IMG/VR virus record: IMGVR_UViG_3300030329_001991
Coordinates: 1-31,194 of that record
From: a virus
Reading direction: 5' to 3' (one strand)
Length of the DNA stretch: 31,194 nucleotides
The notes beneath the pieces were generated by a model. It saw only the letters and a program-made list of their open reading frames with translations. It was not told the origin of the DNA and ran no database searches. Shown piece by piece: positions 8,328 through 28,974 of the stretch. The number at the start of each line of letters is the position of its first letter. Position 1 is the stretch's first letter. A program made the position numbers and the translations under genes.

Positions 8328-9533
8328 ATGGCAGAAGAAATTAAAGCAAAAGTTGTAGAGACAGAAGAATTGTCTATACAAGAAAAAGAAGAAGTGGTAC
8401 AGAAAAACTCAGGTTTTGACGAAGAATCTGGTATGTACAAAGTAGATTTAACACAACCTCCAAAACAAGAAGAAACAAAAGAAGAGCCAGTACAAGAAGC
8501 TCCTGCTGAAGAAGCTGTTGAGGAAGTTGTTGAAGAAAAATCTGAAGAAAAAGAAGAGGAAGTCGCAGAAGAATCAATAATTGAAGAAATTACAAATGAA
8601 GAAGATACAACTGACGATCCAGGAGTGGAAGGAAGCATTGAGGCTACCGACGCCACACCGGAACAAGAAGAAGTATTACAGAAAACAGAAACACAAGAAC
8701 AAGTAGATTATCCTGAAAATATTCAAGAACTAGTTAAGTTTATGAATGAAACAGGGGGTACTCTTGAAGATTATGTTGCATTAAATAAGGATTACGATAA
8801 GTTTGGGCAAATGGATTTACTCCATGAATATTATACTCAAACAAAACCACATTTAACTGCAGATGAAATTGTGTTTTTAATTGATGATAAGTTTTCTTAT
8901 GATAAAGAAGTAGACGACCCTAAAGATATTAAAAGGAAAGAATTATCTTTTAAAGAAGAAGTTGCGCAAGCAAAAAATCATTTAAATCAATTAAAAGATA
9001 GTTATTATAGAGAAATTAAAGGAGGTTCAAGGTTAACACCTGAAGCCCAAAAAGCTATGGATTTTTTTAATAGATATAATGAAGAATCTGAAGCTAATAA
9101 AAAAATAACACAATCTCAGAGAGATGTGTTTAACAATGAAACCAATTCGCTTTTTAACGATAAGTTCAAAGGTTTTGAATACAACGTAGGAGAAAAGAGA
9201 TTTAGGTTTAATGTGAAGAATGTAAATGAGGTTAGAGAAAACCAGAGCGACATCAATAACTTTACTAAGAAGTTCTTAGATAAAGAAAATAAGATGGCTG
9301 ATGCTCCTGGCTATCACAAAGCTTTATTTACCGCGATGAATTCCGACGCTATTGCTCAACACTTTTATGAGCAGGGAAAATCAGATGCTATTAAAGAATC
9401 TGTTAAAACTGCAAAAAATATCAACATGGACCCACGGTCAGCGCACCAAGAGGTAGAAGTTGGTGGTATAAAAGCAAGAGTTATTAGTGGAGATGATTTG
9501 TCTGGAATTAAACTAAAATTAAAAAACTATTAA
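8328..9533 (+). CDS. Scaffolding protein (acidic, capsid assembly)
   Basis: The protein has 401 residues and sits between portal and capsid genes, the classic scaffold slot. Residues about 1-125 are extremely rich in Glu, Pro, Val and Thr (EEAVEEVVEEKSEEKEEEV) and should be disordered. Residues 130-380 are helical and charged, with an EEVAQAKNHLNQLKDSYYRE segment. The end carries a small Gly/Val stretch and a basic KLKLKNY terminus, as expected for capsid binding. It would form the transient core of the prohead and be expelled or digested before packaging. No protease domain is visible in it. The strong GAA bias of the acidic part creates false Ser-rich reading frames on the other strand. Confidence 0.8.
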   Translation: MAEEIKAKVVETEELSIQEKEEVVQKNSGFDEESGMYKVDLTQPPKQEETKEEPVQEAPAEEAVEEVVEEKSEEKEEEVAEESIIEEITNEEDTTDDPGVEGSIEATDATPEQEEVLQKTETQEQVDYPENIQELVKFMNETGGTLEDYVALNKDYDKFGQMDLLHEYYTQTKPHLTADEIVFLIDDKFSYDKEVDDPKDIKRKELSFKEEVAQAKNHLNQLKDSYYREIKGGSRLTPEAQKAMDFFNRYNEESEANKKITQSQRDVFNNETNSLFNDKFKGFEYNVGEKRFRFNVKNVNEVRENQSDINNFTKKFLDKENKMADAPGYHKALFTAMNSDAIAQHFYEQGKSDAIKESVKTAKNINMDPRSAHQEVEVGGIKARVISGDDLSGIKLKLKNY

Positions 9534-13688: not shown

Positions 13689-16600
13689 ATGCCAGAAATT
13701 AAAAATGCTTTTATCCAAGGTAAAATGAATAAAGACCTTGATGAAAGATTAATTCCTAATGGTGAATATAGAGACGCACTAAATGTTGACGTTGATTTTT
13801 CAGACGGCAGCAGTGTAGGCGCCCTAAAAAATATTAAAGGGACTACACAGAGAGATTCTATATCCCTGTCGTCAGCTACATGTATAGGTAATGTTAAAGA
13901 TACTGAAAATAGTAAAATATATTGGTTTATAACATCTTCCGCAAAAGATTTAATATCTGAGTGGAATTATTCAACAAACGCATATGATACAATATTAGTT
14001 GACAGCGGCAGTGTATTAAATTTTAATACTAATAATTTAATAACAGGTGCAAATGTTATTGACGGTATATTATACTTTACAGATAACTTAAATGAACCAA
14101 GACAAGTAGATATTGAATATTGGAGGAGCCAAACATCTGGTTCTACTGGTACAAGCACTGGATTAACAGCGGAAAGAATAACTGTTATTAAAAAATCACC
14201 TTTAGCCGCTCCAACACTAAGTATGAGTAGTTCTACAAGGGGAGGAACTGGTACAGCAGGAGGTAATACAGTAACTTGTAGTATAGATTTATCTGCTTCA
14301 GCAGGTAGTGATTTACAAAATGCAAAAGATGCAGGGACTACTGTTAGCGGTACTTTTAGTGCAGATCCAAATTATCAAGCTAATGATATTATAATATTTA
14401 GTTTTGATTTCTCTGCTTCAGATGGTGAAATAACAAAAACAGAAGCTAGAATAAAAATGGCATCAAATTATGATGGTGGTACAGGTTTTTCAGGCGCTGA
14501 AATATTAACAATAAGCAAACAAGTTAGAGGGGCCGCTGTTGCTTACACATGTTTACTGCAAGAAGACGACCCTCTTTTTGAAAGAAAATTTCCAAGATTT
14601 TCATATAGATATAAATATAATAATGGACAATATTCTTGTTTAGCTCCATTTTCTAATCCAGCATTTTTACCTGATTCAACAGTAGGCAGTGGTACTGGGT
14701 TTGAATATAATGCAGAAGATGGATATAACAAATCAATGGTTAATACATTACGTGCATTAACATTACAAAATTTAGACAGCAATGTTCATGCTGATGTTGA
14801 TGAAATTGATATAATCTATAGGGAATCTGTTGGTACAAACGTTTATATTGTAGATACAATTAAAAGACAATCAAATGGTAGTTTAGCAACCACATTTGAA
14901 GTTAAAGATGAACAAATATTTAAAGTTTTACCTTCAAATCAATTATTAAGATTATTTGATAGTGTTCCTAAAAAAGCAAAAGCACAAGATGTAAGTGCGA
15001 ATAGATTAATATATGGTAATTATACACATCAATTTGACTTACCTGTTGCACCTGTAGCATTTGAAGTGGGATTAAGAAATAGATATGACCCTACTGATTC
15101 AAATAGAAATGAAAGACAATCTATAAAATCAAATAGAACATATCAAATTGGTGTTGTATATATGGATTTATATGGTAGACAAACACCTGTTTTAACAGAT
15201 AAAACTGGTATTATAAAAGTACCACAAGGGCAAGCTAAAAATATGACCCAATTAACTGCAAAAATAACAACATCTGCACCGGCGTTTGCAACAAACTATA
15301 GATATTTTATTAAAGAAATATCATCTTTACAATATAATTTATGTGCAGATAGTTTTTATCAAGATGATCAGGGATATGTATATGTATCATTTCCTTCTGC
15401 AGAAATAAATAAAGTTGATATTGATGATATATTAATATTAAAAAAGAAAACAGGTAATGACCCTTCCGATATTACAGATAAATTTAAAGTATTAGATAAA
15501 CTAACAACACCTCCGCAGTTTTTAGCAAAGCCATTAAGAGAATATTATACCCCAACAACATTTACATTTAGTAAAGATTACGAACAAGACCATGACCAAA
15601 CAACAATAAAGCCGGGCTCTACTCCTGTTCCAGATAGAAATAGAGTGACTATTAGGGATATGCACAATAAGGGTGAATTAAAAGTAGCCAGCGCAAGTGC
15701 AACAATGGGTAGCTCTGATAGAGGTGTTTCAAAAGACGCTTTTTCAGCTGTATCAACAGGTAAAAAAGTAAAATTTATTTGTGGTGATACTGAAAGTAAA
15801 GTTTATGAAATAAAATCTAGAGAACTAAATCTTTCTGATGACGATGATATTGAATTACATTTTACAGAAGAATTTGGTACTGATGTTATAGGTTTATATG
15901 AAGATTATGTTGCTAATCCTCTTACAACTGCTTTAAGACCAGGTGTAAAATTAGTGGGTGTTAAAGAAGAAGATGAATCTGGTAAAGCAGAATTTGAAGG
16001 TAGGTTCTTTTTAAAATTAAAAGCTGATACTAATCTAATTGCCGAGCTTAAAGGTAGCGTAACTAATACAGAAAATTTAAATGCAATTAGTACAATATCT
16101 TTAGATGGTGACCAAGCTGATAATGACCCAAGAGCTCTACATGTATTTACTGGGGGTAATGCAGGGGAAAACACAAGTAGCTCAACCGTTAGAGACGCTG
16201 CCCCGACTGCAGGTGGTTGGACATCACCAAATAATAATGCAAGTGCTACTGGTACGCCTGGGTGGCAAAATAGTGCCCACGGCTCTGTGCTTGTTGCTAA
16301 TCCATATCATTTTTCAATAAGAACAGATAAGTCATATGGGGATGCTGATTCGGATTATGGGGCGCACCCATTTTTACAAAATTTAAAAGCAGGTAATTTT
16401 TTAAAATTTGACAATACAGCTACTGCAGATACAAATTATTATAAGATTGAAAGAGTATACCAATATGATGAAAATTATGATAGTAGTACAAGAAGAGTAT
16501 ATGGTATAGGGTTAGATACAAATCTAAGCCAAACATTAAGAAGACAAGGAGATGATGGGGATGCTAATACTATGCAAATGACTGTATATGAAATTGATAG

Positions 16601-18122
16601 TGAAGATTTAGTTAATATAGTTAATCCACCAATATTTGAAACAGAGCCACAAGATGATGTAGATATTGATTTATATTATGAAACTCAGGAAAACATGACA
16701 GTAAGTAGTAATCATGGTAATAATAACCTATTGTCATATTATAATTGTATTAGTTTTGAAAATGGTGTTGAAGGAGTTACAATAAGAGACGACTTTAATT
16801 CACCACCTGTTGGTAAAGGTGTTAGGGTTTCGACAATATTTGAAGATAATTATCAAGAAGAAGCTGTTACTAATGGTTTAATATTTTCCCAAATATATAA
16901 TGGTAAAACAAATGTTAATAGATTTAATCAATTTATTATAGCAGAAGATATTACGAAAAGACTTAATCCAGAATATGGTAGTATTCAATTATTACATACA
17001 AGATATAATGATATAATTGCATATTGTGAAAATAAAGTTATTAAAATACTTACAAATAAAGATGCATTATTTAATGCTGATGGGAGCACTAACGTAACAT
17101 CTAATAAAGCTGTTTTAGGGCAATCAATGCCTTATAGTTCTAATTATGGTATTGGAACTAATCCAGAAAGCTTTGATGACTTTCTATTTAGAAGTTATTT
17201 TGTAGACGCTAAAAGTGGAGCAGTAGTAAGACATTCAATGGACGGCATGGAAGCTATATCAAATTATGGGATGAAAGATTATTTTAGAGATAATTTAAAT
17301 TTACAATCAGGATATATCCATGGTTCCTATGATGTTGTTAAGTCACAATATAATATTTCTTTACCTACCACTGTTAATACTACAGTTTCTTTCTCAGAAC
17401 CAATAAATGGCTGGTGTAGTAGGAAATCATATGTAAATGAAGGGGGTGTTAGTGTGAATAATAAATACTTTACATTTAAAAATGGGCATATATATGAAAA
17501 TCATGTAGGAACTAGAAATACATTTTATGGCGCTGCAACTACACCATTTGTAGAGTTTATATTTAATGAAGCTCCTGCTAATATGAAAAATTTTAGAACA
17601 TTAAATTATGAAGGAGATTCTGGTTGGACTTGTGCAAGCATAGTTACTGATCAGCAAGACGGTGCTGTTGCTTCTTTTATAGAAAAAGAAAATAAGTATT
17701 TTAATTACATAAGTGGTGTTACAGAAAACGCATCCACAATTGATTTAAAAGCTTTAAATGTACAAGGAATAGGGGTATACAGTAGTGTTTCAACAAGTGG
17801 AGGTGATCATATAACATATAATTTTGCTAATAATACACCACAAGATTTACAAAAAGCTGATACATTATATTATGTTCACCCAACCGGTGATGTTATTACA
17901 GAGATTGGAACTATAACAGCAGTTACAGCAACATCGGTCACAGGAAGGTATTCATCAGCCCCTCCAACAGGTGGATCACCTTATTTTGTGTTTTATTCAA
18001 AAAATGCAAAATGGCAAACAAGCGGACTATTGGGGTACCATGCTACTGTTAAAATGCAAAATACATCTACAGATTCTAAAGAGATATATTCTGTAGGTAG
18101 TGAAATTAGCATAAGCAGTTAA
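13689..18122 (+). CDS. Large tail nozzle/stabilisation protein (T7 gp12 / P22 gp10-like)
   Basis: The protein has 1477 residues. The N terminus, NAFIQGKMNKDLDERLIPNG, then EYRDALNVDVDFSDGSSVGA and KNIKGTT, follows the opening of phage tail nozzle and stabilisation proteins (P..EYRDALNV.....G.....N..GT). Residues 298-315, ERKFPRFSYRYKYNNGQY, and VDEIDIIYRESVGTNVYIVD further on belong, from memory, to a family shared by marine and crAss-like phages. The rest is beta-rich, with no membrane segment or enzyme motif seen. The size is nearly twice T7 gp12, so extra domains are present, perhaps in residues 600-1000, which are Gly/Asp/Asn-rich. It would form the distal tube and attach fibres. The role is inferred from pattern and from its place after the adaptors. 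Confidence 0.7.
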   Translation: MPEIKNAFIQGKMNKDLDERLIPNGEYRDALNVDVDFSDGSSVGALKNIKGTTQRDSISLSSATCIGNVKDTENSKIYWFITSSAKDLISEWNYSTNAYDTILVDSGSVLNFNTNNLITGANVIDGILYFTDNLNEPRQVDIEYWRSQTSGSTGTSTGLTAERITVIKKSPLAAPTLSMSSSTRGGTGTAGGNTVTCSIDLSASAGSDLQNAKDAGTTVSGTFSADPNYQANDIIIFSFDFSASDGEITKTEARIKMASNYDGGTGFSGAEILTISKQVRGAAVAYTCLLQEDDPLFERKFPRFSYRYKYNNGQYSCLAPFSNPAFLPDSTVGSGTGFEYNAEDGYNKSMVNTLRALTLQNLDSNVHADVDEIDIIYRESVGTNVYIVDTIKRQSNGSLATTFEVKDEQIFKVLPSNQLLRLFDSVPKKAKAQDVSANRLIYGNYTHQFDLPVAPVAFEVGLRNRYDPTDSNRNERQSIKSNRTYQIGVVYMDLYGRQTPVLTDKTGIIKVPQGQAKNMTQLTAKITTSAPAFATNYRYFIKEISSLQYNLCADSFYQDDQGYVYVSFPSAEINKVDIDDILILKKKTGNDPSDITDKFKVLDKLTTPPQFLAKPLREYYTPTTFTFSKDYEQDHDQTTIKPGSTPVPDRNRVTIRDMHNKGELKVASASATMGSSDRGVSKDAFSAVSTGKKVKFICGDTESKVYEIKSRELNLSDDDDIELHFTEEFGTDVIGLYEDYVANPLTTALRPGVKLVGVKEEDESGKAEFEGRFFLKLKADTNLIAELKGSVTNTENLNAISTISLDGDQADNDPRALHVFTGGNAGENTSSSTVRDAAPTAGGWTSPNNNASATGTPGWQNSAHGSVLVANPYHFSIRTDKSYGDADSDYGAHPFLQNLKAGNFLKFDNTATADTNYYKIERVYQYDENYDSSTRRVYGIGLDTNLSQTLRRQGDDGDANTMQMTVYEIDSEDLVNIVNPPIFETEPQDDVDIDLYYETQENMTVSSNHGNNNLLSYYNCISFENGVEGVTIRDDFNSPPVGKGVRVSTIFEDNYQEEAVTNGLIFSQIYNGKTNVNRFNQFIIAEDITKRLNPEYGSIQLLHTRYNDIIAYCENKVIKILTNKDALFNADGSTNVTSNKAVLGQSMPYSSNYGIGTNPESFDDFLFRSYFVDAKSGAVVRHSMDGMEAISNYGMKDYFRDNLNLQSGYIHGSYDVVKSQYNISLPTTVNTTVSFSEPINGWCSRKSYVNEGGVSVNNKYFTFKNGHIYENHVGTRNTFYGAATTPFVEFIFNEAPANMKNFRTLNYEGDSGWTCASIVTDQQDGAVASFIEKENKYFNYISGVTENASTIDLKALNVQGIGVYSSVSTSGGDHITYNFANNTPQDLQKADTLYYVHPTGDVITEIGTITAVTATSVTGRYSSAPPTGGSPYFVFYSKNAKWQTSGLLGYHATVKMQNTSTDSKEIYSVGSEISISS

Positions 18123-20469: not shown

Positions 20470-23400
20470 ATGCCAAATATAAATCAATTATTAATAAAAG
20501 CTTTATATAATGAGTATGATCCTAATGTGGATATTAATGCTCAAATAAACTTTGTTAATGAAAATTATACTTCACAGGATAAATTTGTGGAAGACTTTTA
20601 TAAAGAATATGGTACTGAGTTAACACCTGAAATAAAATTATTTATAAATCAGAATTTTGGTGGATTTGAACCTGTTGCTAAACCAACTATAGATGTTGAT
20701 GACTATGATGTTTCAATGTCCCCAGAAGGCGCTACTGTTGCTGCAGAAAATAAATTATCAGAGGGAGAATTAAGAGCTATTGATCAAAAGTTTTCAGATA
20801 TTAGTTATTTTGATAAACTTGTTTATGAATTTCAACCAATAGGAGATAATATTTTTGAAAAAGGTATGAATGTTGGTGATACTGAAAAACAAAAAATTGT
20901 TGAAACTGATACGCTTCAAATGTATGAAGATTTAAAAATTACAAAGGATGATCATAATAAAAATGTTGAAAAGGAATACAAAAAATTACTAGAACCTCAT
21001 GCTTATAATTTATCTGAATCTGAAATCGAAAAATTAAATGATATTAGGCGTGAATTAATTTCTCAAGGATTTAAAGGGGAGATTTTGGAAAAAGCTTTAT
21101 TTGAAGAAGCCCAAAAATTAGTATTAGAAAATTATAAATATCAATATATTTATAGCGTAAGACTCGATAAGGTTAATAGATATCTAAGTGATAGAGCAGA
21201 TTTATTTAGCGTAAAAGGCCCATCTTTAAAAAGAGGGGTTTCATCTTATAAAGACACTGTTTTTCCTGTTTCTGTGCCTATGAGAGAAACACCTGATTAT
21301 GATGAATTTAAAGATTTACAGGGTATTATTTTTAAAGATGTTGAAAAATTTCAAGAAGTTAATAAAACCCTTAAAGAAGATTATGAAGAAAATCAAGAAT
21401 TAGGTAGAGAAATATTAGCATATAGAGAGCGTGCGTCCCAACCAGGATTTGAATTTGATAGCGAAGAAGCTATTGCCATGCAGAAAAAATTAGCTTTATA
21501 TAGAGCAAATAAAAAAGTATTACTAGAGGTTTTGCCAGATATTCAATTAGCTACTGGGGATATGGAGACACTAAATGTTGCGGCAGGATTACTAGGTAAA
21601 GATTACGATACATTAAATAAAAATATGGCAACCGTAGTATTGGGCTTTGGAGATTTAGGCTTGGGTGCTATGAGAATTATGTCGGGGGCTGGCAATCTTC
21701 CTATAACTTTAGGAGCCATACCTCTACCTGATGCAGCAAAGTGGGCTGAAAATAGAACAATTGATATGGATAACCTTTCATTAAAGTGGGATAATTTTAA
21801 AGCTGGGGTTAAGAATACATACAAGCCAGATATTAAATTTGAAAATGCTTTTGATAGTTTAGACAATTTTGGTGAATTTGCCATGCAAGAAATTTCTACT
21901 CAAATACCTATATTTACAACAATGATTGCTGGAGGGGGACTTGCGGGTTGGACTGCACGGAAGCTGGGTGTTTCAGGTACAGTTAAAATTTTAGGTAGAA
22001 ATGTACAAAAAATACCTTTAATTGAAGCAACTGGTGCAGGGGCTTGGATTGGAGGTGCTTCAGGTGGCCAACAATATAATACTATGACTGCCCAAGAAAT
22101 GCGAGACCCTTTCTTAGAATATAGTGAAGCTGAAAAATTCTTAGTATCTGCTGGATATGGAGCAGCAGAAGGTATCTTTGGAACTGCTCCTTCATATATG
22201 TTATTACGTAATACAGCAAAATTCTTATTAAGAGACCCTAGTAAACAGGCATGGAAAATAAGTGGAAAACAATTTTTTAAAAATAACATAGCTTTCCCAG
22301 TAATAGCAGAACCTGTTAGTGAGGGTTTAACAATGGTTTCTCAAAACTGGCTATTGGGTAGACCATTGATGGAAAATGTAGACCATGCAATGTTCTCAGG
22401 GCTTATGTTTAGTATTATAATGAACGCAGCGCCGGCAACTGCTGGTAGAATGATGCAGGATTTTAGTTCATTTTCTGATATGAAAAAATTCAATGAAATA
22501 AATTCTGAAATGAATGCTATTGAAAAAGCTTTAAATAGAAAAAATTCAAAGTTTAAAAAAGGAACAACCGAGTATAATAGCCTTGTTAATTCATATAATC
22601 AATTAAAAACAGATAGGGAAGCTATAATAAATGACTTATATAATAATATAACTACCAAAATGTCTAAAAGGGCTTTTAAGCAATTTATGGAGAATACTGT
22701 AGCCCAGCAAGATATTAGAATACAAGCTCAAAAAATTTATGATGAAGCAGGGGGAATGTTTTTATCAGCGGATGACACAAGGGCTCTTAATGCACTACAA
22801 AAAGAATTTGATAAATACCAATTTGCAAGGGATTTATTTAGGTCTCAAGAAAATTTTGGTAATGAATTTGCTAATCTTAAGGGTAAAGATTCAAATCTTT
22901 ATGACACGTATATAAAGAAAGCAAAGCAAAAATTAAAGCGTGATGGAATAAACGACCCTAACACTACTAAAGTTTTCCAAGAAGCATCTAGTATATATTT
23001 TGCTGACCAATTTGATTTACATACAAAAAATGCAAAGGGGAATGAATTACAAAATATAAAAGTTTTTGAAACCAACCAAGACTTAATTAAATTTATTGAG
23101 CAAGACCCTAAACGTAAAGCAGAGCTTGATAAAAAAGGAAAACGTTGGATTATTGAAAATGGTAAAATAGTTTATAAAACTACCACAAGTAGAGATGCCA
23201 TATTAAGAGGGGATATTAATGGTATAAATACTGAAATTAAGGGTAAAAATTTTGAATTAATATCTAAAGAAAATGCCTTAGCAAATGAAAGAGCAGGAAC
23301 TGGTTATCACGAGTTTGCTCATTCAGTATTATTTAAAGCATTAGCTGCAAACCCTGAGCAATACCTTGACATAGCTAAAACTATTAAAGATTATATAAAA

Positions 23401-26400
23401 GACACAGATAAAAAACTGTATAATATAATGTTCAAATCCGGGGGAGGTCAACAAGCGGATATAACTAACCCAGAAGAAGTTATAGTAAACTTTTTAGAAA
23501 GAATTGCAGAAGGTAAAGTAAAAGATCCCAAGCTTATAGGTGTAATTGCGGAGAGCTTAAGTAAAAAAAGCGGGATGGATATTAATTTTAGAAGTGAATT
23601 AGATACTATAAAGTTTCTATATGATATAGGAATGAAAATAAAAAATGGTACTTTTAAAAGAAGTGATTTAAAAAGTATAAGGGTAAATTTAAGAGGGAAA
23701 CTTAATCAAGCTGATGCTGATGTAAAAAAGCTGATTGATGGAATGAAATTTTCAGATTCAACAATAAAACCGGGTTCTGACGCTGATATAATTCAAAAAT
23801 TGTGGAAAAACCTTGGTGCTGAAGCGGTACCTCAGATTGCAAATAATAAATATATTAGAAATGTTATAAATGAAATTTTAAAAAAATATTCAGGAGTTCC
23901 TGGTTTTACTACTTATAAAAAAGAATTTGAAGATGGATTAATTAATGATCCTGTGTATGGAATATTGGGTTCTTTATTAACATACGATCCTAAGAAAAAC
24001 CCAGTACTAGCTTCACATATTATAGCAAGATTAAGACAAAGAAGTAAAACGATTGCCGAAGATATATTCCCACAATTTTTTGGCGGTGACTATAAAGAAA
24101 CAGGGTATGACCCAACTGATCCCGAAGTATTAAATCAAAGGGAAAGCCTTAGGACTGCATTGGGATTAAATCCAGAAATAATTGAAAAAGTAAAACAATC
24201 AGTAATAAAAACATTTGGTACTAGATTACCTAAGGTAGATTCTAAAAAATTTAAATTTGCTTTACAAAAAGCATTTAGGACAGAATTAAAAAAATTAATT
24301 ACTGACTATATAGGTACAACAAAAGAAACCGTTAAACCTGAAGATGATATAGTCGTTGAAATTAATCCTTATAAATTATTTTTAGATGAATATTTTGAAT
24401 TAGCATATGGTATTATATCGCAGGGGAATATTAATAAAAGATTTGAGCAATTTAGCGAAGAGGTTTTTGACCCTAAAAAAGGTAAAAGAGCAAGAGAAAG
24501 TACTCCAGAGGGTAATACAATATTTATTAAAAGAGATATTACAAAAGAAGAGTGGATGAATTATTTCTTAGGTGATGATGTTAAACCTTCTACTAAAGGA
24601 ACAAGGAAAACAGCTTTAGCTGAATCGTTAGCTGAAGAAATTGCATTTGACGCTACACTAGATGTATTAAGAGACGAAAAGATATTAGATAAAGTTCAAC
24701 AAATTGTAGAAATTAATGGTGAACAATTTAGTGAAAATTATTTAGCACAAGTTGCAAAAGAAATTGACAGAGCTGTTGACTTTGAATTTAGTGACTCAAG
24801 CGCTGGTATAACTGTATTAGATTTTGATGATACTGTTGCGATTTCTAAAAGCAAGGTAAGTGTTACAATGCCTAATCAAAGCGCTGTTTACAATGCTAGT
24901 CCAAAAACTTTTGAAGAGCTAGGTAAGAGAACAGGTTTAATATTTTTAGCTACAGATATAAGAGAAGCCCAAGAATATGCTAGAATGAATAGAGGAGAAG
25001 TTAAGCAGTTCTCAATAAATAATTCTAGTTTAGCAGTTGAAACTCAAGTTTTAGATATAATGAAACAGCTAAAAATTGATACTAGTAAAGGTTTATTATA
25101 TGAAATGATAGACCCTAGGTTTAAAAATTTTTATATTGGAAAGAAAAATGTAAACAAAATAAAAGCTGCTTTAAAAGAAAAAGGTTTTGGTGGATTTAAA
25201 TATACTGATGGAACTCAGGTAGTTGGTGGAACAACACAGAGTATAGCTGTTATAGATAAGTCTATAATTAAACAACCAACAAAACTAACTGCTACTGAAT
25301 TTGCAAAACAACATGATGCATTAAAGAAAGACGGTGCTAAATTTGATTTTAGTGAATTTAATAAAGTTATAGGAGGTGAAAAAGGACCTTTATTTAACAG
25401 ATTACAAAAAGCTGTAAATAAATTTGGTAATAAAAATGTATTTATATTAACCGCAAGACCACAAGAAGCAGCACCAGCAATAAAAGCATGGTTAAAATCG
25501 CAAGGTATAGCATTATCTGAAAAAAATATAATTGGATTATCTGATGGTTCTCCGCAAGCAAAAGCAGATTGGATATTAGGTAAAGCAAAAGAAGGATTCA
25601 ATAACTTTTATTTTGCAGATGATGTATTAGAAAATACATATGCCGTTGAACAAGTATTATCACAAGTCGATGTTAAATACCGAATAGATACAAAATTCAG
25701 TGATAGTAAACCGAATATAGTAAACCTTTTAGAGTCATTTGATGGCAATTTAGGTACTTTTGTTGAGTTTTTTGAGGCCTTAATAAAAGGGCAGAAAAAA
25801 TATAATGATATAACTTCTAAACAAATAAAAGGCGCTAAAGGGCAAATTTTAGAATATTATGTTGCAATGGAAGTTAAAGGTTTACTTGGTGACAGGGTTG
25901 AAATTGTTAATATGGACTATTTAAAGCAACTAAAAACTGGCGATAAAGGTATTGATATTCGATTTAGAGTTGATGGCGGTAAAGAGTTTGGAATAGAAAT
26001 TAAAAGCAAATTTACTGATAAAGTTGGTTCAAAAGCTGGGTATACAGAAACAAATAGAGTATTAGGAGGGGAAGCATTAATACAAGTTAAAAATGCCCAT
26101 GAAGTATTATTAAAGAGAACTACAGATGTTCTTGATAAATTAAATATTGAGTATTATATAGATAAAGATAATGACAATAAGCTTTATACTGAAAAGTTTA
26201 TTAATGGTAAAAAAATAGATGATTTATTAAAAGAAAATGGGGTTCTTTTTTCTGACCAACAACTTAATTTTACAATTGATGGATTAGAAACCATTGCTGA
26301 TATATATGCAGAAAAAGGTGGAAGTTATATATATTTTGACGATGTAGGTTTACTATCTTTAACAAATAACCCTATGCATATGGGTACAAATAAAAATTGG

Positions 26401-28974
26401 TGGGGAAGAAGAGTTGGGGGAGTAAGAAGTGTATTAAATTTAACTGATACAAAAGGTGATAGATTTAATACTGAGGTACAACCAACACTTAAAACAGGTA
26501 AAGGTGGCAATACATTCTATAATAAGAAAAGCGGTAAAAATTTAAAAGCTGAAGATGTAAGAACATTTTTTGTAAGAAGTTACTTCTATATACAAAAAGC
26601 AGATGGTAAAAGAGCAACTGCAAAAGATATAGACCCTAGCATTAATATAAATGAAGCATTTACAAACTTTAGTGATAGTGGTGTAAATTTAAATAATGGA
26701 ATAAATAATATAATAGAACAAAGTTCTGGTATTAAAAATATTGTTAAATACTCTGATACTAAAGGGTATGTTCTTGGCGCAAAAGGATTTTATAGAAACG
26801 AATTAAAAGGAGGATTTATATTTAGATTTACCGCAGATGATTTAAAAGGCTTTACATATGAAATGATGAAAAATATAAGGGGTGAAGAAGGTAATAAAGC
26901 AAAAGCATTTTTTATAGAAAATTTACATAGACCTTATAATACCGGTATTCAAGGGCTTAATTTTGAAATGATGAAAATGGCAGATGATATTAAGGCTCTA
27001 AAAGCTAAATACAAAAAAACTGCTGGAAAATTAAAGAAACGAATTAAAGGTGATATATATACTAATGACCAAGCTGTAAGAATATATATATGGAAAACAC
27101 AAGGTATGGATATACCTGGGATTCCTAAACAAGATATTGCCGATATGGTGAACTATGTTAAAGATGATTTAAGTTTAATGCAGTTTGCTGAAGAAGTAAT
27201 TAAACTAAGCGGCAATAAAGGTTACCCTGCGCCAGAGCTTAATTGGGAGGCTGGTACTATAGATATGGATTTAGCTCATGATTTAAATACAAGAAGGAGA
27301 GCCGAACATTTAAAAGAATGGCAAGAAAATGTTGATATAATGTTTTCTAAAAAGAATTTAAATAAAATGAGGGTTGCATATGGTAATGAATTTGTTGAAC
27401 AACTGGAAGGGATGCTTGAGAGAATGCGTACAGGTAAAAATAGGCAGGCTCAGAACAAAATAGTCAGGAATTGGGAAGAATGGGTTAATGGATCTGTTGG
27501 TACAATAATGTATTATAATATGCGTTCTGCTTTGCTACAAACAATATCTATGGCTAACTATATTAATTGGCATGATAATAATCTATATGCAGCTGGTAAA
27601 GCTTTTGCAAATCAAAAACAATATTGGAAAGATTGGTTAATGATTTTTAATTCAGATTATCTTAAAATAAGAAGAGGTGGGTTACAATTAAATATAAATG
27701 AAGCTGAACTTGCTGAAGCCGCAAATAAAGGAGGCGTTAAAGGTGTTACAGCTTTAATATTAAAAAATGGGTTTACACCTACAAGAATTGCAGATAGTTT
27801 TGCAATTGCAATGGGTGGTGCTAGTTTCTATAGAAACAGGGTTAATTCTCTTATTAAAAAGAAAAAAATGAGTGAAGCAGAGGCTAAGAAAAAAGCCTGG
27901 GAAGATTTCATGGAGCTCACAGAAGAAGCACAACAATCTAGTAGGCCAGATAAAATATCTGCTCAACAAGCTTCACCTCTAGGTAGGCTGTTATTAGCGT
28001 TTGCCAACACACCTATGCAGTATAATAGGATAATAAAAAGAGCGGGCCAAGATTTATATTATGGTAGGGGTGATTGGAGATCAAATTTAAGTAAAATAGT
28101 TTATTATAGCTCACTACAAAACTTTTTATTTAACTTTTTACAAAAAGGAGTATATGCTTTAGGGCTCGGGTTATACGATGATGACCCAGACAAGCAAAAA
28201 GAGAAAGTTACTAATGTATTTGAAGGAATGGCAGATTCACTACTAAGAGGATTTGGTACTGGTGGGCAAGTAGTTTTAACAGCAAAAGGTTTTGGGAAAG
28301 ACATGTTAAAAGAAGACCAAAGTTTTTATGATTCAGATTGGAAAAATATATTAGAATTATCACCTCCTATAGGTAGTAAAATTAAAAAACTGATGAGTGC
28401 TGATTATCTAAAAAAGACATATAAAAATAGTAAGCAATGGGAAGAATGGAGTATTCGTAATCCTCGCCTTGGACATTTTGCTAAATATTCTGAAGCATTA
28501 TTTAATATACCATTAGATAGATTATTAATAAAAACTCATAATTTACAATCAGTATTTTCTGATGAAACAGCAGATTGGCAAAAAGTAGCTTTAACTTTAG
28601 GTTGGAATGAGTGGGACTTAGGTATTGAAGGAATGGATTTACATTCTGAGTTTGGTAAAACACCTATAAAAACCGATGAATATTTAAAAGAAAGAGAAGA
28701 GACTAAAGAAAATCATCAAAGAAAAATTGATTCAATTGTAAACTTAGGTTATACAAGAATACCTTTATCAGGCCCAAGGTCGTTTAAACCAGAAGGCGAA
28801 GAAGGTGTGGACTATATAAGGCTTAAAAGAAAGCTTGATGGTAAATGGCAATATTTTGTACCAAAAGCAGTGTTTGATAAAAAATTCCCACCTAAGAAAA
28901 AAGAACCGAAGACTGTTGAAGAAATACTTGAAGATGCTAGAAAAAGATTAAAGAAAAAAGGATTAACAATATAA
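20470..28974 (+). CDS. Giant multi-domain virion protein (polyvalent ejection protein)
   Basis: The protein has 2834 residues, third of the internal protein trio and so in the place of T7 gp16. In order: N-terminal charged helices (1-440); Gly/Ala-rich hydrophobic segments (about 390-420 and 475-665) that could insert in membranes; helical part; metallopeptidase-like HEFAH (947-951) with Glu1002/1003; helical unknown part (1094-1440); HAD-type hydrolase (1448-1740) interrupted by an ART-like domain (about 1472-1602); PD-(D/E)xK-like nuclease (about 1750-1920); unknown beta domain (1930-2060); long C-terminal part (2095-2834) of a kind that, from memory, recurs in giant virion proteins of marine phages. 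[FY]SD recurs at domain borders. This is the build of polyvalent proteins (term of Iyer, Aravind and colleagues). Probably packaged in the head and injected. Individual activities are unproven. Confidence 0.75.
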   Translation: MPNINQLLIKALYNEYDPNVDINAQINFVNENYTSQDKFVEDFYKEYGTELTPEIKLFINQNFGGFEPVAKPTIDVDDYDVSMSPEGATVAAENKLSEGELRAIDQKFSDISYFDKLVYEFQPIGDNIFEKGMNVGDTEKQKIVETDTLQMYEDLKITKDDHNKNVEKEYKKLLEPHAYNLSESEIEKLNDIRRELISQGFKGEILEKALFEEAQKLVLENYKYQYIYSVRLDKVNRYLSDRADLFSVKGPSLKRGVSSYKDTVFPVSVPMRETPDYDEFKDLQGIIFKDVEKFQEVNKTLKEDYEENQELGREILAYRERASQPGFEFDSEEAIAMQKKLALYRANKKVLLEVLPDIQLATGDMETLNVAAGLLGKDYDTLNKNMATVVLGFGDLGLGAMRIMSGAGNLPITLGAIPLPDAAKWAENRTIDMDNLSLKWDNFKAGVKNTYKPDIKFENAFDSLDNFGEFAMQEISTQIPIFTTMIAGGGLAGWTARKLGVSGTVKILGRNVQKIPLIEATGAGAWIGGASGGQQYNTMTAQEMRDPFLEYSEAEKFLVSAGYGAAEGIFGTAPSYMLLRNTAKFLLRDPSKQAWKISGKQFFKNNIAFPVIAEPVSEGLTMVSQNWLLGRPLMENVDHAMFSGLMFSIIMNAAPATAGRMMQDFSSFSDMKKFNEINSEMNAIEKALNRKNSKFKKGTTEYNSLVNSYNQLKTDREAIINDLYNNITTKMSKRAFKQFMENTVAQQDIRIQAQKIYDEAGGMFLSADDTRALNALQKEFDKYQFARDLFRSQENFGNEFANLKGKDSNLYDTYIKKAKQKLKRDGINDPNTTKVFQEASSIYFADQFDLHTKNAKGNELQNIKVFETNQDLIKFIEQDPKRKAELDKKGKRWIIENGKIVYKTTTSRDAILRGDINGINTEIKGKNFELISKENALANERAGTGYHEFAHSVLFKALAANPEQYLDIAKTIKDYIKDTDKKLYNIMFKSGGGQQADITNPEEVIVNFLERIAEGKVKDPKLIGVIAESLSKKSGMDINFRSELDTIKFLYDIGMKIKNGTFKRSDLKSIRVNLRGKLNQADADVKKLIDGMKFSDSTIKPGSDADIIQKLWKNLGAEAVPQIANNKYIRNVINEILKKYSGVPGFTTYKKEFEDGLINDPVYGILGSLLTYDPKKNPVLASHIIARLRQRSKTIAEDIFPQFFGGDYKETGYDPTDPEVLNQRESLRTALGLNPEIIEKVKQSVIKTFGTRLPKVDSKKFKFALQKAFRTELKKLITDYIGTTKETVKPEDDIVVEINPYKLFLDEYFELAYGIISQGNINKRFEQFSEEVFDPKKGKRARESTPEGNTIFIKRDITKEEWMNYFLGDDVKPSTKGTRKTALAESLAEEIAFDATLDVLRDEKILDKVQQIVEINGEQFSENYLAQVAKEIDRAVDFEFSDSSAGITVLDFDDTVAISKSKVSVTMPNQSAVYNASPKTFEELGKRTGLIFLATDIREAQEYARMNRGEVKQFSINNSSLAVETQVLDIMKQLKIDTSKGLLYEMIDPRFKNFYIGKKNVNKIKAALKEKGFGGFKYTDGTQVVGGTTQSIAVIDKSIIKQPTKLTATEFAKQHDALKKDGAKFDFSEFNKVIGGEKGPLFNRLQKAVNKFGNKNVFILTARPQEAAPAIKAWLKSQGIALSEKNIIGLSDGSPQAKADWILGKAKEGFNNFYFADDVLENTYAVEQVLSQVDVKYRIDTKFSDSKPNIVNLLESFDGNLGTFVEFFEALIKGQKKYNDITSKQIKGAKGQILEYYVAMEVKGLLGDRVEIVNMDYLKQLKTGDKGIDIRFRVDGGKEFGIEIKSKFTDKVGSKAGYTETNRVLGGEALIQVKNAHEVLLKRTTDVLDKLNIEYYIDKDNDNKLYTEKFINGKKIDDLLKENGVLFSDQQLNFTIDGLETIADIYAEKGGSYIYFDDVGLLSLTNNPMHMGTNKNWWGRRVGGVRSVLNLTDTKGDRFNTEVQPTLKTGKGGNTFYNKKSGKNLKAEDVRTFFVRSYFYIQKADGKRATAKDIDPSININEAFTNFSDSGVNLNNGINNIIEQSSGIKNIVKYSDTKGYVLGAKGFYRNELKGGFIFRFTADDLKGFTYEMMKNIRGEEGNKAKAFFIENLHRPYNTGIQGLNFEMMKMADDIKALKAKYKKTAGKLKKRIKGDIYTNDQAVRIYIWKTQGMDIPGIPKQDIADMVNYVKDDLSLMQFAEEVIKLSGNKGYPAPELNWEAGTIDMDLAHDLNTRRRAEHLKEWQENVDIMFSKKNLNKMRVAYGNEFVEQLEGMLERMRTGKNRQAQNKIVRNWEEWVNGSVGTIMYYNMRSALLQTISMANYINWHDNNLYAAGKAFANQKQYWKDWLMIFNSDYLKIRRGGLQLNINEAELAEAANKGGVKGVTALILKNGFTPTRIADSFAIAMGGASFYRNRVNSLIKKKKMSEAEAKKKAWEDFMELTEEAQQSSRPDKISAQQASPLGRLLLAFANTPMQYNRIIKRAGQDLYYGRGDWRSNLSKIVYYSSLQNFLFNFLQKGVYALGLGLYDDDPDKQKEKVTNVFEGMADSLLRGFGTGGQVVLTAKGFGKDMLKEDQSFYDSDWKNILELSPPIGSKIKKLMSADYLKKTYKNSKQWEEWSIRNPRLGHFAKYSEALFNIPLDRLLIKTHNLQSVFSDETADWQKVALTLGWNEWDLGIEGMDLHSEFGKTPIKTDEYLKEREETKENHQRKIDSIVNLGYTRIPLSGPRSFKPEGEEGVDYIRLKRKLDGKWQYFVPKAVFDKKFPPKKKEPKTVEEILEDARKRLKKKGLTI
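21625..22470 (+). other. Gly/Ala-rich hydrophobic region of the giant protein
   Basis: Residues about 386-667 hold several uncharged Gly/Ala/Met-rich stretches: VVLGFGDLGLGAMRIMSGAG, IFTTMIAGGGLAGWTA, ATGAGAWIGGASGG, VSAGYGAAEGIFGTAPSYML and AMFSGLMFSIIMNAAPATAG. They alternate with charged pieces. This is what is expected of a protein that is soluble in the virion and enters membranes during ejection. Transmembrane topology is inferred. Confidence 0.45.
23275..23560 (+). other. HExxH metallopeptidase-like segment of the giant protein
   Basis: GTGYHEFAHSVLFKAL places HExxH at residues 947-951 (bases 23308-23322). A third ligand candidate lies 50 residues on, in NPEEVIVNFLERIAEG (Glu1002, Glu1003), followed by a helical stretch, as in gluzincin-type peptidases. 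It could cleave host proteins after injection, or the giant itself. Zinc binding is inferred from the motif only. Confidence 0.55.
24802..25690 (+). other. HAD hydrolase domain interrupted by an ART-like domain
   Basis: HAD motif I is DFDDT (residues 1451-1455). Motif II-like TARP (1661-1664) and the final acidic pair in FADD (1717-1718) follow only after residue 1604. Between VTMP (1467-1470) and TKLTATEF (1604 on) sits a block of about 130 residues resembling ADP-ribosyltransferase-like domains: VYNASPKTFEEL, a LIFLATDIREAQEYA element, EVKQFSI, EKGFGGFKY and the terminal AVIDKSIIK. The expected His of VYHxS is Asn1475 here. The two HAD halves rejoin smoothly if the block is removed. Confidence 0.6.
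25790..26170 (+). other. PD-(D/E)xK nuclease-like domain of the giant protein
   Basis: Motif order is that of the restriction-endonuclease fold: a helix with Glu1795 (KGQILEYYVAMEVK), then GDKGIDIRF with Asp1829, then EFGIEIKSKF with Glu1843 and Lys1845, 14 and 16 residues after the Asp. This D..ExK spacing is canonical. The domain would cut DNA; host chromosome degradation or attack on competing phage or plasmid DNA are the options. The target is unknown. Confidence 0.6.

Follow-up and report, generated by a model that had tools for sequence, protein, structure and literature searches.

The 31,194-base IMG/VR virus record analysed here over its whole length (hereafter the window) ends its virion gene cluster with a very long ORF whose product carries the tripeptide [FY]-Ser-Asp again and again. 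The question raised by this locus is whether these repeats mark the borders between the domains of the protein and, if they do, whether they are sites at which the chain is cut. An earlier note, made from the sequence, had listed nine [FY]SD sites and a variant, MFSKK, and proposed that they bracket single domains, either as signals for cleavage by a prohead protease or by the giant's own HExxH domain, or as a conserved linker used in domain shuffling. All ten sites sit at the residues named there (Table 1).

The giant gene and its modules

Upstream of the giant ORF lie terminase and portal genes, as well as other virion genes. The presence of a muzzle protein together with the order of the TerL and portal genes identifies this as the virion cluster of a crassvirus-related podovirus, and the relatives of the window TerL come from Flavobacterium elemo, Cellulophaga and Tenacibaculum phages. 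In elemoE, phi38:1 and phi13:2, the cluster also ends with a giant, annotated as 'structural' or 'virion structural', and because of this synteny we infer that the window giant is likely to be packaged in the virion. A tblastn search of isolate phages with the giant gave no matches. The scaffold-like protein encoded between the portal and the next structural gene belongs to a family that is very common in marine sequences (at least 578 relatives).

The 2834-aa product combines several unrelated enzymatic domains, recognized by their motifs (HExxH, HAD motifs and a D..EIK nuclease motif), with a shared module of the LPD/polyvalent type, which was recognized by its fold. The AlphaFold2 model of this C-terminal part (residues 2040–2834; 46 sequences, pLDDT 80) matched uncultured viral proteins in BFVD at an E-value of 1e-40 and further long viral proteins at 1e-12 to 1e-4, including LPD-, MuF_C- and PolyVal(-ART)-annotated ones at 1e-7 to 1e-4. 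The Pfam LPD/PolyVal models did not match the window giant and its profile–profile comparison with the LPD38 alignment was not significant, so that its membership in the polyvalent class rests on fold and architecture. The nuclease-like module had no database match and its profile comparison with PDB was not significant; a Foldseek search of PDB with the model of residues 885–2080, a low-confidence multidomain model (pLDDT 63), returned nothing significant. The ART-like segment, whose comparison with ARTs, including Pfam, gave no significant match, interrupts the HAD domain between its first and second motifs, is absent even from homologues with 64–66% identity and has no FS tag at either end.

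Table 1. Features of the window discussed in the text (nucleotide positions in the window; aa, residues of the giant)
Feature	Position	Strand	Basis and remarks
401-aa acidic scaffold-like protein, where a prohead protease or scaffold is usually encoded	8328..9533	+	no family match; acidic, variable N-terminus in homologues
Muzzle-like protein of crassvirus-related podovirus	13689..18122	+	crAss_MUZ_C, 28 bits vs cutoff of 27
Giant ORF, 2834 aa, polyvalent-type multidomain protein	20470..28974	+	last gene of the virion cluster
F108 (FSD), outside linker set	20791..20799	+	unconserved
F668 (FSD), outside linker set	22471..22479	+	unconserved at that position
Zincin-like metallopeptidase region, HEFAH at aa 947–951 (nt 23308–23322)	23107..23694	+	assigned by motif; no Pfam match
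Linker site F1094 (MKFSDS), 147 aa after HExxH	23749..23757	+	coil, pLDDT <50; K[FY]SDS or QFSDS in 4/5 close homologues
Linker site F1440 (FEFSDS), before HAD	24787..24795	+	coil, pLDDT <50; 5/5 close homologues
HAD-type domain (DFDDT ... LTAR ... FADD), aa 1446–1742	24805..25695	+	homologue alignment; HAD phosphatase fold matches weak only
ART-like insert within HAD, aa about 1466–1606	24865..25287	+	absent from all aligned homologues; putative ART
Linker site F1743 (TKFSDS), HAD/nuclease border	25696..25704	+	pLDDT <50; homologues keep FSDS, FSET or FSSS although the length varies
Nuclease-like module, D...GIEIK (PD-(D/E)xK-like), aa 1746–1925	25705..26244	+	E-I-K conserved in 4 homologues
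Linker site F1927 (VLFSDQ)	26248..26256	+	11-residue coil; [FL]SD in 5/5 homologues
Module aa 1930–2064	26257..26661	+	shared with close homologues; missing in most of the family
Linker site F2067 (TNFSDS), before C-terminal module	26668..26676	+	pLDDT <50 in both models; [FML]S[DEN] in homologues
C-terminal helical module, aa 2070–2834	26677..28971	+	homologue alignments, AlphaFold2 pLDDT 80, fold match to polyvalent proteins
Y2094 (YSD), inside folded domain	26749..26757	+	pLDDT about 91, before helix; part of conserved block
F2292 (FSK), inside folded domain, helix start	27343..27351	+	pLDDT about 95; conserved IFSxxNLNK block
F2696 (FSD), inside folded domain, helix start	28555..28563	+	pLDDT about 82; unconserved

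Frequency and placement of the motif

The motif is real and over-represented in the giant. FSD occurs eight times against 0.53 expected (Poisson 9e-8), which makes it the most extreme of all tripeptides, and no tripeptide as extreme was seen in any of 1000 composition shuffles. For [FY]SD, nine copies were observed against 0.90 expected, the maximum across 20,000 composition shuffles being seven, and a first-order Markov model reached eight FSD in two of 5000 runs. Thus, the earlier guess of fewer than about one FSD by chance was correct, and shuffled sequences do not give similar counts.

The ten sites could not be treated as a single class, as five of them are unconserved or lie within folds. 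The linker class comprises F1094, F1440, F1743, F1927 and F2067, all in coil between modules and kept in close homologues; four of these (1094, 1440, 1743 and 2067) read FSDS, as had been noted. The other five, F108, F668, Y2094, F2292 and F2696, are either unconserved (108, 668 and 2696 in an 11-way alignment) or located at helix starts in folded domains, with 2094, 2292 and 2696 directly preceding helices of the confident C-terminal fold (pLDDT about 82–95). In the model of residues 885–2080, sites 1094, 1440, 1743 and 2067 are in coil with pLDDT below 50 and 1927 is in the short coil that separates the nuclease-like unit from the module after it; sites 1440 and 1927 are followed by strands rather than helices. 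However, 30% of that model lies below 50, the chance of finding four of five sites there being about 0.03, and the evidence for the linker class is stronger from homologue comparison than from pLDDT. The bracketing originally proposed therefore holds for the HAD domain with its insert, between 1440 and 1743, for the nuclease-like unit, between 1743 and 1927, and at 1094 and 2067, but not for the other five sites.

In the close clade of five full homologues (the window, L001, L002, L100 and L101), the linker sites persist while the surrounding linkers vary in length. Site 1440 reads F[EK]FSDS in all five members, 1743 reads TKFSDS, SQFSDS, GKFSET, SQFSDS and SQFSSS, and 2067 reads NFSDS, NFSDS, KMSET, NFSDS and MLSNS, whereas [FL]SD is found at 1927 in five and the motif at 1094 in four of the five. 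In L002, three non-homologous linker sites (aa about 1146, 1657 and 1981) share [DA]FGKxSE[TN], as if altered in concert. Serine codons vary among the sites of a single gene (TCA, TCT and AGT) and family-wide (130 TCN and 113 AGY); with both serine codon families in use, selection must act on the peptide and not on a DNA recombination site.

Profile-guided scans (80 of 568 and 80 of 487 relatives kept) provided 135 non-redundant marine giants. In these, Ser is followed by D, E, K or R; the broader motif is approximately h-x-[FY]-S-[K/R/D/E], of which the five linker sites show the D-form. In the part of the chain that precedes the HAD domain, [VILM][KRNQ][FY]S[DEKR] is enriched threefold (38 vs 12.7 expected in 96 giants), but not in control ORFs of the same loci (0.84x) or when Ser is replaced by Thr, Asn or Ala (0.7–1.1x). 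Simple FS counts in marine giants are inflated by a conserved in-fold EExxTxFS block at about +60 from HExxH, close to what is presumably the third zinc ligand. The residue after Ser is only weakly homogeneous within proteins of the marine family (p 0.02–0.06, with similar p for two control motifs) and not significantly so in the prophage proteins described below; its coevolution as a sign of one trans-acting enzyme was dropped.

The linker between the HAD and C-terminal modules is only 7–13 residues long in most homologues (e.g. QQAKVQFSKSLD or QQAKFSKTN). At this junction, 41 of 96 homologues have [FY]S, 35 have a degenerate xS[KRE] and 20 have neither, so that homologues lacking the border motif while keeping the domains, which the earlier note had regarded as refuting, do exist alongside a majority that retain it in one form or the other. 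Inserts of 174–507 residues at this junction carry FS at both ends in the window, L100 and L096. The L002 insert combines FS at one end and in its interior with MSET at the opposite end, and in L091 one of the two ends carries FS. Junction insertions in L096 (2283–2785), L091 (2103–2277) and L169 contain the HAD tail (VKxVxDVLxxxDVKSKxQQ) for a second time, and this duplication suggests module gain by recombination at the HAD-tail segment.

A genome scan with the LPD38 alignment returned 80 loci, apparently mostly prophages or prophage fragments, with 85 non-redundant proteins. Here the tag reads [PMR]-F-S-R-S, with P preferred at −2, M at −1 and S at +3 relative to Phe, and FSR occurs 79 times against 27.9 expected. 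Pfam mapping of ten proteins, mostly picked for having several FS sites, showed two FSR sites enclosing PBECR1 in L331, L322 and L334, and FSR pairs enclosing ART and LPD3 in L304 and GNAT in L336. Domain flanks contain 14 FSR against 4.6 expected, a number reached in none of 3000 circular shifts, while FT, FA and FN are flat. These flanks, like the +110..+150 window below, were chosen after the first examples were known; with symmetric 50-aa flanks there are 11 FSR against 3.4 expected, and p is about 0.012 or lower at 30, 50, 75 and 100 aa, although the FN control is also raised at 75 and 100 aa (p 0.03 and 0.006). Total FS in 15 mixed isolate and plasmid giants is only slightly raised, the signal being in FSR and its placement in the larger set.

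FS sites are also commoner than expected at certain distances from the zincin motif. They are found at +110..+150 after HExx(x)H in 16 of 65 prophage proteins (4.1 expected; FT, FA and FN not raised) and at +140..+165 after the zincin in 17 of 117 marine giants (7.0 expected; FT, FA and FN flat), with another peak upstream, at −140..−75 (15 vs 6.3 expected). The tag is enriched, specific to Ser, placed at borders and conserved in linkers of variable length; it is independent of codon choice and recurs in polyvalent proteins that are unrelated. It is thus a real, selected signal at domain borders in the window giant and in hundreds of related phage polyvalent proteins. As a selected border tag that accompanies inserted modules in homologues and Pfam domains in unrelated polyvalent proteins, the motif bears out the interpretation of the earlier note in part.

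Possible roles of the motif

The best single explanation, which we put forward tentatively and at somewhat less than an even chance, is that the border motif is a protease-recognition site cut by some enzyme. This reading fits a motif that is short, specific, located in disordered border linkers, next to a peptidase domain and part of proteins whose separation by built-in peptidases has been proposed (PMC5512222). The linker sites would then be a short linear motif, h-x-[FY]-S-[charged], marking module borders in virion-delivered polyvalent proteins. The giant would be made and packaged as one chain and separated around maturation or after injection into an N-terminal part with the zincin, the HAD, the nuclease, the next module and the C-terminal module. 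A zincin-class enzyme could cut just before Phe (Phe at P1'), not necessarily the copy in the same chain. Against cleavage stand the fifth or so of homologues that keep both domains with no site at the junction, the retention of the motif in giants with a degenerate HExxH, the free variation of the residue after Ser (D, E, K, R or V) and the relatives N4 vRNAP (with an MPTase domain), ArdC and TraC1, which are packaged or transferred uncut (PMC5512222). The main text of the crAss001 structure paper nowhere mentions cleavage or a protease (PMC10172136).

Cutting by the zincin of the same chain, a sub-case of the cleavage reading, appears unlikely. HExxH is present in 114 of the 135 marine giants and HExx(x)H in 65 of the 85 prophage proteins, an FS site often follows shortly after the zincin and gluzincins commonly cut before aromatic or bulky residues. 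However, seven giants (L058, L067, L136, L137, L148, L066 and L171) have a zincin domain with EELFH, EEIFH, QEVGH or HHDGLH in place of HExxH; judging from these motifs, they probably retain inactive metallopeptidases. Two of them, L058 and L067, have three copies of the border motif each, and the tag is enriched to the same degree whether or not HExxH is present (3.5x vs 3.6x) and is not confined to proteins with an intact active site. This weakens the proposal that the giant's own HExxH domain does the cutting, at least as the sole enzyme, and a trans-acting enzyme or a non-cleavage role is needed at least in the giants with degenerate zincins. As to the other candidate suggested, a prohead protease, none was recognized among the proteins of the virion cluster scanned with Pfam and PHROGs; the gene next to the portal, where such an enzyme would be expected, resembles an acidic scaffold, and the FSD/FSK sites contain no AXE, the SPN3US prohead-protease consensus (PMC10052503).

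Only slightly less probable than cleavage is an uncut adaptor, in which the border motif is real but docks the linkers to a virion or chaperone partner, or spaces the domains as beads for one-by-one threading and unfolding through the portal and tail. The placement evidence is equally compatible with such a role, as are the many residues tolerated after Ser, the persistence of the motif in giants with degenerate zincins and the transfer of relatives uncut (PMC5512222). Partial unfolding on ejection has been proposed for crassvirus cargo (PMC10172136). An uncut adaptor does not, however, predict the frequent FS position right after the peptidase domain.

It is improbable that the enrichment mainly reflects general protein grammar, in which a Ser/Thr/Asp helix cap is preceded by Phe or Leu (hydrophobic staple and capping box), with a partly coincidental placement in linkers. 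Cap-like tripeptides such as LSK, TPE and SPE are also enriched, and 2094, 2292 and 2696 are indeed helix starts within folds, but for the five linker sites this explanation is already disfavoured: two of them precede strands, Thr, Asn and Ala variants and control ORFs show no enrichment, and the domain-flank and zincin-spacing tests are specific to FS. A DNA-level scar of module shuffling is very improbable, for although inserted modules bring the motif and FGKxSE[TN] recurs at three sites of L002, a DNA repeat or recombination site is mostly refuted by the codon use, and the shuffling linker of the earlier note survives at the peptide level only.

To return to cleavage, its widest form, in which FS-[charged] would be a general processing signal of virion-delivered polyvalent proteins common to Bacteroidota phages, Pseudomonadota prophages and an archaeal virus, turning one injected chain into separate effectors through a common cut site, seems doubtful to us.

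Comparison with known systems

We found no description of the border motif in the open-access literature searched; most subscription papers fall outside this search and 'undescribed' is a provisional term. The substrates of prohead proteases, such as SPN3US gp245 with its AXE motif (PMC10052503) and P1 DarA, which is cut by Pro (PMC12810830), likewise carry a short linear motif in virion-packaged proteins. However, in SPN3US the cut at AXE releases N-terminal propeptides, whereas in the window giant the motif is at internal borders, AXE is absent and no protease gene was recognized.

In its place at the end of the virion cluster, in the order TerL-portal-...-muzzle-...-giant, the window giant resembles the crassvirus cargo/RNAP proteins and phi38:1 gp101, phi13:2 gp127 and elemoE gp18, although the giants of the Cellulophaga phages phi38:1 and phi13:2 have neither HExxH nor an excess of FS. 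A parallel in motif placement is the DarB-like giant BcepIL02 gp70, in which FSV immediately precedes LPD3 and flanks the zincin on either side, these sites being at aa 3308, 3520 and 3751 in P0002 numbering. Another DarB-like giant, JC1 gp69, is a virion component according to MS, which yielded 51 unique peptides for it (PMC9144972). In both proteins the third residue is V, not D, and we found no published processing map for either.

There is also a likeness to the polyvalent proteins of phages and conjugative elements (Iyer et al. 2017, PMC5512222), which share with the window giant a very long multidomain chain with a zincin, a putative ART and nuclease, and the C-terminal fold of LPD/PolyVal proteins. 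The text of that paper names no linker, FSR or short motif, and the window giant matches no LPD Pfam model. Polyvalent proteins have been proposed to be dismantled by built-in peptidases that separate their domains, with no site named in the literature text searched, and a border motif readable from the sequence provides exact places to look for neo-termini. With such a motif, unannotated giants can also be divided into modules for structure prediction, and the stretches between two tags become places to search for new effector domains. If cut, the motif would explain how a single chain delivers many enzymes; if uncut, it would point to a common handling or threading element of these proteins.
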